Shown one piece after another: positions 55,881 to 61,274 of a DNA stretch of 64,000 bases. Position numbers and translations under genes: made by a program. How positions within the stretch are numbered: the stretch's first letter is position 1; every line of letters begins with the position of its first letter. The stretch comes from Methylophaga thalassica MP. GTDB lineage: Bacteria; Pseudomonadota; Gammaproteobacteria; Nitrosococcales; Methylophagaceae. The stretch spans positions 1,716,382 through 1,780,381 of the forward strand of contig NZ_AFIG01000001.1 in assembly GCF_000214595.1 (NCBI RefSeq). Direction: 5' to 3'. The notes under the pieces are model-generated. The model did not search any database and was not told the DNA's origin. It was given only the letters and a program-made list of their open reading frames with translations.

Positions 55881-56870
55881 ATGACTATCTTAATTCATCC
55901 GAATGATGCACTTGTTGATGACATCTCGCCACTACCTTTAATACCTGCATGTGAACACTTCGCTGGTAGCCGCCATACTTTACTCAAAGCCTTTTCAATT
56001 CAATCTGAATATGGCCCGGTATTCGACATCACCTGTGATTGTGAAGACGGCGCAGCCTCGGGTGGAGAAATACAACATGCGAATATGATTGTTGAACTTC
56101 TCAATAGCGAACACAACATTCATCATATGTCAGGAATTCGTATCCATGGCTATGATCATTCTGTCTGGCGACAGGAAATCGATATTTTGTTATCTGGCGC
56201 AAGAGACAATATTCGCTATATTACACTGCCCAAGGCGCAAAATGCTCATCAAGTTGAGGTTATGCTTGAATATATTCAGCAAGCTTCACAGAGATACAAC
56301 ATTACCCACCCCATCCCTATCCATGTATTAATTGAAACACACGGTGCATTAAACGACGTCTACAAAATTGCAGCCATGAAGCCTGTGCAAGTTCTAGATT
56401 TCGGGATTATGGACTATATCAGCGCATATCAAGGCGCTATAACGGATAATGCTATGCATAGTCCTACTCAGTTTGAACATGCTCTGATTGTCAGAGCGAA
56501 AACAGAAATAGCCTGTGCCGCCATATCTTCTGGCTGTATACCATCACATAATGTGACACTGGCGATTAAGGATTATCAACAAACATTTGAAGATGCTTAT
56601 AGAGCGCGTAATCAGTTTGGCTTTTTGAGAATGTGGAGTGTGCATCCCCAACAAATAAAAGCCATTATAAAAGCGATGACACCTGAGTCAGAAAAGATCC
56701 AGCTTGCCAGTGAAATCTTGTTGACAGCACAACAACGTAGTTGGGCACCAATAAGCTTAAACGATAAATTGTATGATAAGGCCTCTTATCGCTATTACTG
56801 GCAGCTTCTACAGCGGGCTCATCTATCTGGCGAGAAGCTTTCTACAGATGTCCAGGAACAATTCTTTTAG
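55881..56870 (+). CDS. HpcH/HpaI-aldolase or citrate-lyase-beta-like protein
   Basis: 329 residues, TIM-barrel family of CitE/malyl-CoA lyase-like enzymes. The phosphate/acidic motif DITCDCEDGAASGGE, the IHVLIETHGALNDVYKIA strand with its metal-ligand Glu, and VLDFGIMDYISAYQG are recognisable. It would cleave or form a C-C bond in an acyl-CoA or a dicarboxylate in the cytoplasm. Divergent from ppsR, with 279 bp between. True substrate unknown; malyl-CoA and citramalyl-CoA are possibilities. Confidence 0.8.
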   Translation: MTILIHPNDALVDDISPLPLIPACEHFAGSRHTLLKAFSIQSEYGPVFDITCDCEDGAASGGEIQHANMIVELLNSEHNIHHMSGIRIHGYDHSVWRQEIDILLSGARDNIRYITLPKAQNAHQVEVMLEYIQQASQRYNITHPIPIHVLIETHGALNDVYKIAAMKPVQVLDFGIMDYISAYQGAITDNAMHSPTQFEHALIVRAKTEIACAAISSGCIPSHNVTLAIKDYQQTFEDAYRARNQFGFLRMWSVHPQQIKAIIKAMTPESEKIQLASEILLTAQQRSWAPISLNDKLYDKASYRYYWQLLQRAHLSGEKLSTDVQEQFF

Positions 56871-56945: not shown

Positions 56946-57374
56946 CTATCGGTAAATGATCTGCTTTCTCAAGGGGACTAATCTCGCAAGCAATTGATTT
57001 TGTATGGGATGGGAAATACCTGTTTCATTCATAGCATCAATCAGTAAATCTACCAAATGATTAAAATCACGCTCATTGATATCCATCCCGTCATGAATTT
57101 GTTGCATTGAGTCACCATTGTACTGACACGGTCCATCACTAGTTGCACAAAGATATAGTATTAAGCTTTTTTTGAATCGGCTGACATTAGACTGGGCAAA
57201 GTAATGAAATAGCTGTTCATCATGTCCAATATTTTTCGTGAGGTTGTTAACAATAGAAACGATCCCCTTTTCACCGCCAAGTTTTTCGTACAATGAGGGA
57301 GCATGCGAAAAATGACCGCAAGCGGTCAAAAAGCCGAAGATAAGTAAAATAATGCAAATATTCCTGCATCTCAT
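56946..57374 (-). CDS. group I truncated haemoglobin with lipoprotein signal
   Basis: 142 residues. A lipoprotein signal (CIILLIFGFLTAC, lipid on Cys19) is followed by a 2-on-2 globin: SLYEKLGGEKGIVSIVNNL, HYFAQSNVSRFKKSLILYLC, and the proximal haem His in MQQIHDGMDINERDFNHLV. Truncated haemoglobins bind O2 or NO; anchoring in the envelope is unusual. It is the last gene of a four-gene leftward run with DUF3034, GGDEF/EAL and cupredoxin genes, and shares one base with the DUF3034 stop. Confidence 0.85.
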   Translation of the reverse strand: MRCRNICIILLIFGFLTACGHFSHAPSLYEKLGGEKGIVSIVNNLTKNIGHDEQLFHYFAQSNVSRFKKSLILYLCATSDGPCQYNGDSMQQIHDGMDINERDFNHLVDLLIDAMNETGISHPIQNQLLARLVPLRKQIIYR

Positions 57375-58201
57375 CAGAAATTGCCCATAATGGAAAAGTA
57401 GATACCATCTTGATGTTTTGCACCGGCGATATCCCCCAAGTCAATCCAACCAGCAGTGATATTCAGTGATTTATTGGGTACCCAAGCGAGAAACAGGCTT
57501 TTCCAGTCGTCTTCTTTCAGTGATAAATTATCCGGCTTTTGGCGATACTCAACCCCCAAAGCAATATGCCTTCCCAGCAATAAGGCTGTAGAAGCTTCCC
57601 AGACAAGTTCGGCACCCTCCCCTTTTGCACCAAATCCTAATAAACCGGTTTGGTTTGCCTCCGTATAACGGCCTGTGACATTCCACAGCCAATTCAGGCC
57701 AGCAATCGCGCCTAGATGTAATTTACTCGCAGCCAGATAATAATCTGTTCCACTATCATCTTCTGCGCCGAGTAAATCAGCAACAAAGGGATCATGTAAC
57801 GTTTTATGTTGGATACCTAAACTGAGTTGTGGCCAATCACTATAGACAATATCCCCATACAAACGTAATTTGGCACCGAAAATACGTTGACGAATATTGC
57901 GATCCAGAGCATCAACATGAAACGTTTGCTCTGCAATTGATAATTCCAAACGATCGTATAAATTTGTTTGAGCACCACAGACATCTAATCTGTAGTCATC
58001 AACCTCACCACGACTGCAAAAAACATTGAAAGCGACTTCATCCTGACTCGCGTAACCTGCTAATTGTGCCCAAGGAACCAGCCCTCCACCTCCGCTTCCC
58101 TCTATCTGAGAAACACCAGGAGTTGCAATTAATTTTCCATCTGCTGCACAACAGACAACGGGCATAAAAAGCATTAATTTAAGAAATATTTTTTTCCACA
58201 T
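57374..58201 (-). CDS. DUF3034 outer-membrane-like protein
   Basis: 275 residues from the ATG at 58201 (AAAGAG upstream); the frame extends to 58285 within the EAL gene but without a signal. Signal peptide (FLKLMLFMPVVCCA), then KLIATPGVSQIEGSGGGGLVPWA, which is the DUF3034 signature, and repeated aromatic beta strands that end in FSIMGNF, a C-terminal Phe typical of outer-membrane beta barrels. Function unknown. It overlaps the EAL gene by 23 bp. Confidence 0.83.
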   Translation of the reverse strand: MWKKIFLKLMLFMPVVCCAADGKLIATPGVSQIEGSGGGGLVPWAQLAGYASQDEVAFNVFCSRGEVDDYRLDVCGAQTNLYDRLELSIAEQTFHVDALDRNIRQRIFGAKLRLYGDIVYSDWPQLSLGIQHKTLHDPFVADLLGAEDDSGTDYYLAASKLHLGAIAGLNWLWNVTGRYTEANQTGLLGFGAKGEGAELVWEASTALLLGRHIALGVEYRQKPDNLSLKEDDWKSLFLAWVPNKSLNITAGWIDLGDIAGAKHQDGIYFSIMGNF

Positions 58202-60515
58202 ACTCTTTTTGCCATGAATAAAACGTACCTGCAGAAAGCGGTTTACTGATGAAATAACCTTGAATTTCGTCACAACCAAAGTCACTCAAAATCTGAAGAC
58301 CAGCTTCATTTTCTACGCCTTCAGCAACAACATAAAAGCCAAGCTGATGAGCTAATTGAATAGTAGAACGAACAATTAATTTATCTTTTTCAGAAGAAGC
58401 TAACTGCATAATAAAGCTTTTATCCAGTTTAATTTCATCTACAGGGAGATCTTTGAGTTTGGATAATGATGACTGGCCGATACCATAGTCATCAATAGCA
58501 ATATGAAAACCATGACTTTTCAACCTTTTTAATGCGGCAACAACAATATGTTCATGGTGCATGATATCTCGTTCAGTAATTTCTAGAGTAACGAGTGCCT
58601 GGTTAATTTGATGACGCTCAACCAACTCGCAGAGATGTTTTTCAAAGTCTTTATGCATCAAATCTTGCGCGGAGACATTAATCGATACAGGGACTATAAG
58701 TCCTTTGTTTTGCCAAAATGCCATCTGAGAGAAAACAGAATCAATCACCCAATCCGTTAACTCGATAATAAGCCCAGCTTGCTCGGCCAGATTCACAAAT
58801 AACTCTGGTGAAATAAATCCCTTATCAGGATGTTTCCAGCGAATCAGTGCTTCTGCCTTAATACTCTGATCTTGTAAATTAATCTTAGGTTGGTAAACCA
58901 TAAATAATTCTTCAGTATCAGGTTTTTTAAAAAGATTTTTCAGAGCATCAGTAATTGCCAAACGCTCTAGATGAGCTTCATCTTCACCATCCTTATAAAA
59001 ATGTATACGCTGTTTACTTTTTCTTGCATTATCGAGAGCGATGCTGGTTCTTCTCAGTAATGATGTTGTGTCGGTACCATTATCTGGATAAATAACAACA
59101 CCAGCGCTGAGCTCCAGGTTTATCATTAATTCAGCAACGTTAAAATCCCCCTCAAGAGAACTGAGGAAATTATCGACCTGATGTATAGGACTTAGCTTTT
59201 CTGATAAATTCAGTAGAGAAAAGAACTCTACACCGTCCAGTCTTGCCGCCATTTGTATTTCAATAAGCTCAGTATGTTTAAGGCGTGCAGACAGTGCCTT
59301 TAAGCAGTCATCTGCAATGTCAGGCCCTAAACGATCATTAATCTGTCTGAAGTTACGAATACTAAAAGCAACCAGTAGTTTTTGCCGTCCTGAAGCTAAA
59401 TACTCAGGTAATTTTTGTTTCGCCGTATAGATGTTATAGAGGCCGGTCAAAATATCGTATTGAGCTTGGTAAAGAATCTTATCCTCACGCAGTTTAATCC
59501 GCTGCCCCATCATTTCAAATGTACTCAGTAGCTGTCTTGCTTCTATACCACTTCTCTCTAGATCAATAGTTGATGAATAATCTCCAGCAGCGAATTTTTC
59601 CGCTAGCTTTGTCAATTTTGTCAGTGGGATAGTGAGACTTTTTGCCAGAAAAATACTGAGTAATGATGCAATAATTGCTACCAACAGCGCCAATAAGAGG
59701 TTATGAATGATAATTTCGTCATATTGAGCATAAAGAGGAGCAAGGCTGCTGGTCAGCAAAACACCGACAGGCGCTGCACTCGTGGATGGCAGGAGCAACT
59801 CCTCAGTAATATAAGCGGGCCGAGGAATCATAAATCGATAGGTAAGCTGATTATTCAGATTGTCTTGAAATTGTCTAAAACTCTCAACACCAATTGTGGA
59901 AATCAGTAGCTGCTTGTCTTCATCATAAAAGCTCACATCGACGCCGGTGAGCTTTTTTAAGGCATCCATATCATCAGCCGTAATTTCAAATCCGACTACA
60001 CTATAAGCAATTGTATGAGGTGCTTTAACCGGCAGTAATATTAACTGATAAAAATGCTGATTAATCGTAGCAAAAAAACTTTTTCCGGGACTGTTGATCA
60101 AACTTTTGATTAAAGCTTCATTTAAATCAGAGTCAGATAAAATCGCCCGACTGGAACTGATAAGGCTGCCAGATAAATCTGTTAGCAGCATCAAATCAGC
60201 ATCAATTCGTTTACCGTGATTTTGCAATACGCTTTTGATTGTTTCAGCATCGGAAGTTGCAACTGCACGGATGAAACCGAAGTCAGATGTCAGAACGTTA
60301 GCAGCAATAACTAATAACTTTTCTTGTGCAGATAAATATTCGATAAGTACCTGTTTTGCACTCAAAACTCGCTCTGTTAGCTGTTGCTGATTAAATTTAT
60401 GACTACTCAACCATGTACTAGCCTGGATAACGACCGTAGTAAAAAATACCAAAAAGGTACATAACAAAAAAATCTTGTTTCGTAATTTAATCCGGTGAAA
60501 CCACACCAAAAACAT
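58179..60515 (-). CDS. membrane GGDEF/EAL protein, probable c-di-GMP phosphodiesterase
   Basis: About 778 residues; the ATG at 60515 is used, though the frame opens at TTG 60521. Two membrane helices (about 16-36 and 270-292) enclose a periplasmic sensor domain; HAMP follows. The GGDEF domain is degenerate (RLDGVEFFSLL), so it probably lacks cyclase activity. The EAL domain keeps KAEALIRWKHP, VSINVSAQD, LEITERD, and IKLDKSF; the usual DDFGTG is DDYGIG. It likely degrades c-di-GMP in response to a periplasmic signal. It overlaps the cupredoxin gene by 29 bp. Confidence 0.88.
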   Translation of the reverse strand: MFLVWFHRIKLRNKIFLLCTFLVFFTTVVIQASTWLSSHKFNQQQLTERVLSAKQVLIEYLSAQEKLLVIAANVLTSDFGFIRAVATSDAETIKSVLQNHGKRIDADLMLLTDLSGSLISSSRAILSDSDLNEALIKSLINSPGKSFFATINQHFYQLILLPVKAPHTIAYSVVGFEITADDMDALKKLTGVDVSFYDEDKQLLISTIGVESFRQFQDNLNNQLTYRFMIPRPAYITEELLLPSTSAAPVGVLLTSSLAPLYAQYDEIIIHNLLLALLVAIIASLLSIFLAKSLTIPLTKLTKLAEKFAAGDYSSTIDLERSGIEARQLLSTFEMMGQRIKLREDKILYQAQYDILTGLYNIYTAKQKLPEYLASGRQKLLVAFSIRNFRQINDRLGPDIADDCLKALSARLKHTELIEIQMAARLDGVEFFSLLNLSEKLSPIHQVDNFLSSLEGDFNVAELMINLELSAGVVIYPDNGTDTTSLLRRTSIALDNARKSKQRIHFYKDGEDEAHLERLAITDALKNLFKKPDTEELFMVYQPKINLQDQSIKAEALIRWKHPDKGFISPELFVNLAEQAGLIIELTDWVIDSVFSQMAFWQNKGLIVPVSINVSAQDLMHKDFEKHLCELVERHQINQALVTLEITERDIMHHEHIVVAALKRLKSHGFHIAIDDYGIGQSSLSKLKDLPVDEIKLDKSFIMQLASSEKDKLIVRSTIQLAHQLGFYVVAEGVENEAGLQILSDFGCDEIQGYFISKPLSAGTFYSWQKEYVEKNIS

Positions 60516-61158
60516 CCTCAAAGCTATTTCTAGGTAGCGGGTCGACAGTCGTCACTTTAATCATTAACTGCCCCCTTGTATTGTGTGACAAAGTATCCAG
60601 AGTAAGTATCTGTTGTGACTCGGCACCATCAGCTTGTTGCGCATGCCACACACGAACAGCTTTAATCGGTTTGTCTACGATTATCTCGGCGCTACCATTA
60701 TCATCCGTAACAACAGTTTGATTAGAATCAGCGACATAGATATAGCCAATCATACTATCGTGGATATTACATCCCAGTACAACTACGCCAGCCTCATTAA
60801 ATGTGATAGGTGCTTCTGGCTTATTAGCATAAAGTTTTAGTTCAAAGACTTTTGCTTTTGAGAATGAATACACATGATGTCTGATGTTATCACTATTTGG
60901 AAATTCAACAGATTGTCCCTTTTGGATAATAATTTGTTGTGGCGTAAACTGCTTATTGACTTGATCGATACTGGTAAGTGGAAGCGACTTATGAGGTTTT
61001 TTTGATACATCAACTAAAGGCTCAATAACGGTATCACTTAATGGTAAGCCTTGTTGATCAACAACCACAAAGGGATATCTTTCCGTCGCCTGAGAATTAA
61101 CTGAGAAACAAAATATAATCGTTATAGAAATAATCCAGTAACAGCGTTTTAGCGACAT
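60487..61158 (-). CDS. periplasmic cupredoxin, 'methylamine utilization protein'-like
   Basis: 223 residues with a signal peptide (WIISITIIFCFSVNSQA). The copper ligands of a type-1 site appear in NIRHHVYSFS (first His) and GCNIHDSMIGYIYV (Cys, His, Met), a plastocyanin-like pattern; a C-terminal immunoglobulin-like extension follows. Often annotated as methylamine utilization protein although no mau gene is nearby. It is the first gene of the run that continues with the EAL protein, DUF3034 and haemoglobin, so a redox or copper signal to c-di-GMP is plausible. Confidence 0.85.
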   Translation of the reverse strand: MSLKRCYWIISITIIFCFSVNSQATERYPFVVVDQQGLPLSDTVIEPLVDVSKKPHKSLPLTSIDQVNKQFTPQQIIIQKGQSVEFPNSDNIRHHVYSFSKAKVFELKLYANKPEAPITFNEAGVVVLGCNIHDSMIGYIYVADSNQTVVTDDNGSAEIIVDKPIKAVRVWHAQQADGAESQQILTLDTLSHNTRGQLMIKVTTVDPLPRNSFEDVFGVVSPD

Positions 61159-61234: not shown

Positions 61235-61274
61235 AAAAAAGCCCATACAAGCGATCTTGCATGGGCTTTTTTCA
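61235..61274. terminator. bidirectional terminator between merR-type gene and cupredoxin gene
   Basis: GCCCAT.CAAG pairs with CTTG.ATGGGC around four bases, flanked by six A on the left and six T on the right. It ends the pheT-ihfA-merR transcript on the minus strand; the symmetry also allows plus-strand use. Confidence 0.85.

Follow-up and report, generated by a model that had tools for sequence, protein, structure and literature searches.

A stretch of 64,000 nucleotides from Methylophaga thalassica MP (contig NZ_AFIG01000001.1, positions 1,716,382 to 1,780,381), here called the window, carries four minus-strand genes within positions 56946-61158 that are transcribed in the order cupredoxin, EAL protein, DUF3034 protein and globin (Table 1). 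All four open reading frames (ORFs) were found where an earlier reading of the sequence alone had placed them, and their coordinates confirm its statement that the genes overlap or touch end to end. The cupredoxin and EAL genes share positions 60487-60521, the EAL gene stops at 58179 inside the DUF3034 gene, and base 57374 is common to the DUF3034 and globin genes. The listed DUF3034 frame opens with a GTG at 58285, located 5' of a signal-peptide-like stretch, and the ATG at 58201 is the likelier start. Because a strong hairpin lies 5' of the cupredoxin gene and the next gene 3' of the globin gene is convergent, the four genes look like a unit of their own. The hairpin (-19.4 kcal/mol, z -4.6) sits between an upstream MerR-like gene and the cupredoxin gene. 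A promoter and terminator pattern scan did not list it, and that scan was overall no better than shuffled sequence.

Table 1. Features of the four-gene module and of its porin-like neighbours elsewhere. Fractions are rows of the cupredoxin (112) or globin (119) alignment that keep the residue; these counts and that of the EAL alignment (103 rows, restricted to matches of at least 600 bits) include near-copies because some named loci duplicate sampled genomes, with rows L082/L053 and L150/L050 identical.
Feature	Position	Strand	Basis or conservation
Exported cupredoxin-type protein (cupredoxin domain approximately residues 59-144)	60487..61158	-	fold and conserved ligands
Candidate copper ligand H94	60877-60879	-	111/112
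Candidate copper ligand C130	60769-60771	-	110/112
Candidate copper ligand H133	60760-60762	-	110/112
Candidate copper ligand M136	60751-60753	-	110/112
Predicted membrane c-di-GMP phosphodiesterase (dCache_3-like sensor, HAMP, degenerate GGDEF, EAL)	58179..60521	-	Pfam
Sensor DFGF motif, residues 80-83	60273..60284	-	alignment conservation
Degenerate GGDEF motif DGVEF, residues 429-433	59223..59237	-	alignment
EAL motif, residues 557-559	58845..58853	-	sequence, alignment
DUF3034 protein, likely start ATG 58201	57374..58201 (listed frame to 58285)	-	PF11231 and AlphaFold2 model
Group-I truncated globin with lipobox (LTAC)	56946..57374	-	PF01152 and HbN matches
Globin Cys76	57147-57149	-	118/119
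Globin Cys83	57126-57128	-	118/119
Globin haem His94	57093-57095	-	119/119
Hairpin then T run, likely terminator	61240..61267	-	folding energy and z score
Porin-like proteins of about 410 amino acids	L163:4146-5408, L164:4670-5905, L167:1871-3112, L168:6377-7606, L170:8678-9925, also L171-L175

The four-gene association is no accident of one genome and goes beyond chance. We examined 398 evenly drawn Pseudomonadota genomes, among them that of the window, for DUF3034 and ran profiles for the cupredoxin (A3), the globin (A4) and the sensor region of the EAL protein (A6) over the same genomes, at thresholds set after inspection of the scores (cupredoxin, 100 bits; sensor, E 1e-25; globin, 139 bits, with the next best match at 94). 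DUF3034 occurs in 39 genomes with 14 family codes, 33 of them from the window's class and six from outside it. The match covers nearly the whole profile in 38 (the exception is G261), and the gene is single-copy in 38. All 39 also carry the globin, 38 the cupredoxin and 37 the sensor-type EAL protein. The sequence-only reading had suggested this check and would have been weakened by a lack of co-occurrence beyond this genome; instead, the co-occurrence runs far beyond it. At the 39 loci the globin gene is always adjacent to DUF3034, the cupredoxin gene is linked in 33, a full EAL gene (at least 600 bits) in 31, and all four genes are together in 30.

Two pairings stand out from the full set of 398 genomes. 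DUF3034 and a strong globin (at least 139 bits) are both present in 39 genomes, DUF3034 alone in none, the globin alone in two and neither in 357. For the cupredoxin (at least 100 bits) and the sensor, 50 genomes hold both, three only the cupredoxin, one only the sensor and 344 neither (Fisher p 9e-59), and the corresponding counts by genus are 35, 2, 1 and 175 (p 2e-36), where genus is the only correction for phylogeny and the p-values ignore deeper kinship. The 100-bit threshold drops nine of 62 cupredoxin genomes; if all 62 are kept, 50 have the sensor. Among the 14 sensor genomes that lack DUF3034, 13 carry the cupredoxin, and in five genomes (G142, G158, G375, G015 and G126) sensor and cupredoxin are both present but far apart. 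Five loci consist of DUF3034 and globin only, and in four of these genomes (G389, G225, G261 and G213) the cupredoxin-EAL pair is found elsewhere.

For gene order we compared 80 named GTDB loci, which were the best among 583 confirmed stretches and thus lean to near relatives. The exact order cupredoxin-EAL-DUF3034-globin on one strand is seen in 67 of them, and the others comprise Marinomonas and further loci without a linked full EAL gene, a locus with a split EAL gene, and contig ends. In 90 colinear four-gene loci, the three gaps between genes are at most 60 bases in 89, 89 and 88 cases, values that are lower bounds because the upstream-most start codons were used. Among the sampled loci, 23 of 39 are colinear for all four genes, and in six, all outside the window's class, the cupredoxin-EAL pair is divergent from the DUF3034-globin pair. 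The order DUF3034-globin-cupredoxin-EAL occurs in L054 and in the Caballeronia plasmid locus L032. Apparent globin-before-DUF3034 orders (L036, L054 and L066) proved to be artefacts of over-long globin frames. The cupredoxin-EAL and DUF3034-globin pairs are kept through all three arrangements. The cupredoxin-EAL pair is also found where DUF3034 and globin are missing, and linkage of the EAL gene is at times lost, so that the module is composed of two sub-modules. Thus, the single circuit of four genes that had been proposed from the sequence holds with respect to recurrent linkage but not as one fixed circuit.

The EAL protein is classified from its sequence as a cyclic di-GMP (c-di-GMP) phosphodiesterase with an intact EAL site and a GGDEF domain that is degenerate in most relatives. 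Its Pfam scores exceed the cut-offs for EAL (244 versus 31.3 bits), GGDEF (67.6 versus 23.8), dCache_3 (38.0 versus 25.7) and HAMP (27.0 versus 25). The catalytic set of EAL enzymes is E, N, E, DD, K, E and Q, and E557, N615, E647, D677, D678, K698, E734 and Q754 are present in all 103 rows of the alignment. GG[DE]EF is kept in 30 of the 103, and the DGVEF of the window departs from the diguanylate cyclase motif. The dCache_3-like sensor is predicted by domain architecture to be periplasmic, in agreement with the earlier picture of a membrane EAL protein with a periplasmic sensor. Within the sensor, the DFGF motif is conserved at D80 (101/103), F81 (98/103), G82 (98/103) and F83 (101/103), in rows of which almost all come from DUF3034 loci. 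In L042 (4765-7200) and L043 (10451-12847), a further sensor-type EAL gene lies immediately 5' of the module's cupredoxin gene, and the EAL gene of Colwellia polaris (L089:4611-6999) is broken into two overlapping frames. An apparent cupredoxin-EAL fusion in L126 was ruled out, as its two parts are in different reading frames.

The cupredoxin is placed with type-1-like cupredoxins by its predicted fold and conserved ligands rather than by its Pfam score, which for Cupredoxin_1 is 15 bits, under the curated cut-off of 27. The AlphaFold2 model (predicted local distance difference test, pLDDT, 91.8) aligns with plastocyanin 1bxu over 83 residues at 1.8 Å (VIA Z 12.0) and also matches amicyanin and pseudoazurin. 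Four candidate copper ligands are conserved in nearly every row (Table 1), with a C-x2-H-x2-M spacing that we take to be that of amicyanin. Amicyanin is also the best sequence match in the PDB, at an E value of 0.035 that is not significant alone. A fold match to 9hfj, the N-terminal extension of a SusC protein (Z 10.5), spans residues 24-209, hinting that the copper domain may be inserted in a second beta domain. An export signal is predicted for the protein. Plasmid relatives carry the annotation 'methylamine utilization protein', and the open-access literature on PSHAa0458 and mauL gave no useful lead. The neighbors of a more distant cupredoxin relative (116 bits) at L181 (1721-6329) are a di-haem peroxidase that scores 193 bits (CCP_MauG) and a protein of 984 amino acids with matches to the profiles for EAL (104 bits) and for the sensor (112 bits).

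By its match to the Bac_globin profile (PF01152; 59.4 bits, cut-off 21) and its proximal histidine, the fourth gene product is assigned to the group-I truncated globins, and it matches PDB entries named HbN (E 6e-14 to 1.6e-13). The haem histidine is invariant and the two cysteines are nearly so (Table 1). The lipobox of the window's globin was recognized by eye; the pattern is present in 91 of 119 globins and discernible by eye in several more, and others have plain signal-peptide-like starts. Group-I truncated globins that act as O2 binders or nitric oxide (NO) dioxygenases of the HbN type typically have Tyr at B10 and polar residues at E7 and E11. These three positions, set by alignment to HbN, are all apolar in 116 of the 119 globins, and the window has Thr46 (B10), Phe67 (E7) and Leu71 (E11). 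The three exceptions at B10 are the Thr of the window, a Tyr in L032 and an Asn in L038. An apolar haem pocket should bind O2 poorly, and NO or carbon monoxide (CO) would be better ligands. In globin-coupled sensors, O2 is held by distal Thr and Tyr residues, according to the accessible part of a 2022 review (PMC8846402). The proposal of a copper protein and an O2/NO-binding globin in the envelope therefore stands as regards a copper-type protein, a globin and export signals, but 'O2/NO-binding' was too specific given the absence of Tyr B10 and polar E7/E11.

We also inspected a control set of 20 globins with weaker or unlinked matches. Five have both cysteines (the strong unlinked L202 and L203, and also L184, L186 and L188), and all five are apolar at B10, E7 and E11 with export-like N-termini by eye. 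Among the 15 without the pair, nine have Tyr at B10, and L185, L190, L193 and L200 are apolar. Some control globins with Tyr B10 (L194 and L197) have hydrophobic N-terminal stretches. The idea that the three traits of export, paired cysteines and apolar pocket are inseparable was dropped, as these last six globins contradict it. Thus, the exported globin family consistently shows the apolar pocket, which is not unique to it. The genomes of L184, L186 and L188 lack DUF3034, and these globins are possibly a second branch of the exported group.

The DUF3034 protein scores 344 bits against PF11231 (cut-off 25), and its closest relatives found are Methylophaga sequences of 69-76% identity (alignment A2; loci L072-L074). 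Its AlphaFold2 model (pLDDT 82.7) forms a 12-strand barrel and the last residue is Phe; a plug-like N-terminal stretch is conserved but poorly modelled. With a signal peptide judged by eye, a closed barrel with an even number of strands and a C-terminal aromatic residue, the protein is predicted to be a 12-strand outer-membrane beta-barrel, which favors the earlier assignment of DUF3034 as an outer-membrane component. The nearest folds are FapF, KdgM/NanC and the COG4313 channel (Z 18-20, identity 6-10%), a comparison of folds only, in which families missing from the match lists are not thereby excluded. A PDB sequence search with DUF3034 gave no match. Genome G078 has a second, broken DUF3034-globin copy with in-frame TAG stops (C3:72191-73313). 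A shortened DUF3034 that covers profile positions 87-255 only is found in G261 (C8:130217-130723, locus L041), where the cupredoxin-EAL pair is elsewhere in the genome.

The outer-membrane partner is likely to be exchangeable. Of 28 further stretches that we fetched, 26 surround cupredoxin genes remote from DUF3034, and in 13 of these 26 a porin-like family of about 410 amino acids adjoins the cupredoxin or its EAL gene (L163, L164, L167, L168 and L170-L175, and by profile L156, L160 and L166). Ten of these proteins share 29-61% mutual identity, eight of the ten end in an aromatic residue, and by eye they have signal-peptide-like starts. Of the eight scanned against Pfam, five gave weak porin or barrel matches below cut-off and three gave none; we infer that the family forms a barrel. 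A DUF4394 protein adjoins the cupredoxin in L162 (4743-5636) and in the Comamonas locus L031 (5027-5977), and L159 and L165 contain both cupredoxin and EAL genes. On the cupredoxin tree the partner labels cluster, requiring eight changes versus 19.3 when shuffled; the porin-like label needs three changes, of which starred branches force two. The tree was made by a quick method with the named loci thinned by half and five rows skipped (four with a porin-like neighbor), and the exchange is weakly resolved in it. Thus, the recurring theme is an inner-membrane phosphodiesterase, a periplasmic copper protein and, commonly, a probable outer-membrane barrel.

Beyond these partners, a conserved further neighbor was sought among the flanking genes and rejected. 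The largest flank-gene cluster is GGDEF/EAL-like (23 loci) and represents displaced or extra copies, and the other clusters, which were grouped without a family search, recur mostly within lineages. In the window, the convergent gene at 55881-56870 codes for an HpcH/HpaI-type lyase that lies outside the module and scores 64.8 bits against the RipC model, far below the cut-off of 375.

We propose, with a confidence that is about evenly balanced, that the four genes form a trans-envelope c-di-GMP module in which the cupredoxin controls the phosphodiesterase while the DUF3034 channel and the globin feed in the stimulus. Given its near one-to-one pairing with the sensor, the cupredoxin probably provides the input of the phosphodiesterase, and the DUF3034-globin pair is likely to be the outer part because it is nearly confined to genomes with the cupredoxin-sensor device. 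A relay from barrel and globin through cupredoxin to phosphodiesterase is therefore proposed. The EAL protein would be a working inner-membrane phosphodiesterase and the cupredoxin a dedicated periplasmic partner of its sensor, contact with which may alter enzyme activity according to copper loading or redox state. DUF3034 would provide a 12-strand outer-membrane channel, with the globin as its near-obligate companion in the periplasm, in most cases held by a lipid anchor. The two might take in, bind or react with the stimulus and pass it to the cupredoxin, whether as haem with a bound gas, as a change in redox state or as a solute that has been transported. As stimulus we favor the redox state of the periplasm or a diatomic gas, with copper as a cofactor rather than the message, and NO or CO would rank above O2 because the haem pocket is mostly apolar. 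A more specific version, a 'metalloprotein relay' in which exchangeable barrels report to one blue-copper protein whose redox state switches the phosphodiesterase, with an electron, or one gated by a gas, as the signal that crosses the periplasm, seems unlikely.

Several observations weigh against the proposed module. Profiles A3, A4 and A6 were built mainly from DUF3034-linked loci, and the phylogenetic correction stops at the genus. A strong globin occurs in the absence of DUF3034 in two genomes (G154 and G328), and G078 has DUF3034 and globin alone, with neither cupredoxin nor sensor-type EAL protein. No cupredoxin gene lies near the second sensor-type sites of G207, G225 and G389 or near the sole one of G119. 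Of 13 EAL proteins from cupredoxin loci that lack DUF3034, nine have no D[FY]G[FY] pattern, which is absent in L121 and L143 as well, and the window's own globin is among the exceptions at B10. Moreover, 12 known operator patterns run against 108 upstream regions, with eight order-1 shuffles each, revealed no shared operator. FNR-like boxes (six; shuffle mean 1.25, highest 3) and RpoN-like boxes (five; mean 1.5, highest 2) are in excess, but this covers only five to six of the 108 regions, and the other ten patterns are inconspicuous.

Loci without a linked phosphodiesterase gene count against the module as well, and they speak for a different view, which we consider somewhat unlikely: that barrel, haem globin and blue copper protein make up a transport or electron-transfer device and the EAL protein only tunes lifestyle. 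Such a device might serve solute uptake, or periplasmic O2 or NO chemistry in which the cupredoxin passes electrons to the globin. Cupredoxin, DUF3034 and globin genes occur without a linked full EAL gene in Marinomonas and others (L048, L107, L111, L112, L113, L116, L117 and L137, and in another gene order L033 and L066), the genome G019 has these three genes but no sensor-type EAL gene anywhere, and in L163, L164, L168 and L174 a cupredoxin adjoins a porin-like barrel with no linked EAL gene. A periplasmic truncated haemoglobin has also been proposed to reduce O2 in cable bacteria, according to the accessible part of PMC12093952. However, 37 of the 39 genomes with DUF3034 and 50 of the 53 with the cupredoxin have a sensor-type EAL protein, among them the genomes of L048, L163, L164, L168 and L174 (G142, G340, G348, G015 and G375, respectively). 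The mostly apolar haem pocket also lacks the residues typical of O2 binders and NO dioxygenases.

The conserved copper site invites the alternative that the module senses copper or another metal directly, such that the barrel admits copper, the cupredoxin is loaded, the phosphodiesterase lowers c-di-GMP and the globin protects from copper redox stress. The four-ligand type-1-like site is kept in 110 to 111 of 112 rows, and among the periplasmic CHASE4 c-di-GMP proteins of Pseudomonas aeruginosa, one binds copper in vitro and haem controls a second, as described in the accessible portion of PMC13277305. Nevertheless, we find this alternative quite doubtful. Among the 108 upstream regions, copper boxes are below expectation or within the range of the shuffles (CueR-like 0, expected 0.4; CusR-like 1, expected 2.6; CopR-like 5, expected 2.5, with shuffles to 5), and the short amicyanin-like loop suggests electron transfer over reversible metal sensing. 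Recurrence of flank clusters mostly within lineages also gives it little help, although copper genes are possible among these clusters because their identity was not looked up. Finally, genomic hitch-hiking, with linkage due to ancestry rather than function, could be suspected from the share of the window's own class among DUF3034 genomes (33 of 39). We reject this as highly improbable, since it is largely refuted by the unlinked co-occurrence. The 14 family codes, the six genomes outside the class, the differing gene orders, the co-occurrence kept where linkage is lost and the flanks that are mostly unshared between lineages all speak against it.

Some parts of the proposed module recall known systems. 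The c-di-GMP enzyme MbaA of Vibrio cholerae acts through a separate periplasmic partner, NspS, which is a solute-binding protein. This partner is not a metalloprotein, and neither barrel nor globin is involved. H-NOX proteins act in the cytoplasm and have another fold, whereas the module has an exported truncated globin and a copper protein. The likeness lies in a periplasmic cue, here polyamines, relayed to a membrane c-di-GMP enzyme for MbaA (accessible part of PMC8079147), and in a separate haem protein that binds NO and controls a diguanylate cyclase or cyclase-phosphodiesterase partner for H-NOX (accessible part of PMC8846402). YfiBNR of P. aeruginosa, to the extent that the available text of PMC2837407 describes it, likewise combines in one operon a c-di-GMP enzyme of the inner membrane, a small periplasmic controller and an outer-membrane lipoprotein. 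However, YfiN is a cyclase and YfiB is OmpA/Pal-like, whereas the operon studied here has a phosphodiesterase, a cupredoxin and a globin lipoprotein, plus a barrel. A Pfam scan of the four proteins (E to 0.1) gave no match to YfiR, OmpA-like YfiB, a solute-binding-protein domain or HNOB (H-NOX). Thus, YfiBNR and the H-NOX pairs work in a similar manner but have no part in common with the module beyond c-di-GMP domains. The CHASE4 proteins PA14_53310 and PA14_37690 resemble it in that periplasmic sensor domains of c-di-GMP enzymes bind haem or copper (accessible part of PMC13277305). These are one-component systems with the ligand on the enzyme itself, and the terms cupredoxin, DUF3034 and hemoglobin are absent from the text of that paper. 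HbN shares its profile family and proximal histidine with the module globin, which differs in its export signal, Cys76 and Cys83, and mostly apolar B10, E7 and E11.

In the open-access literature, outside which subscription journals largely fall, we found no functional description of this operon and no paper that combines 'cupredoxin' with 'EAL domain'. Open-access papers that name DUF3034 give no function in their accessible parts, one mention being in a legend otherwise on DUF3037, and the accessible part of PMC3770913 mentions truncated hemoglobin and the EAL domain with no link between them. The word 'copper' is absent from the main text of the 2022 review of c-di-GMP stimuli (PMC8846402). 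The module thus looks like an unstudied envelope sensing system across many Proteobacteria. It is amenable to testing, with four compact genes, a single-copy DUF3034 and hosts that include free-living marine genera. If our proposal is correct, a role and partners could be assigned to DUF3034, to a widespread family of truncated globins that are exported and to the cupredoxins that carry the annotation 'methylamine utilization protein'. Many marine and soil bacteria would then have a multi-protein copper and haem input to the control of c-di-GMP.

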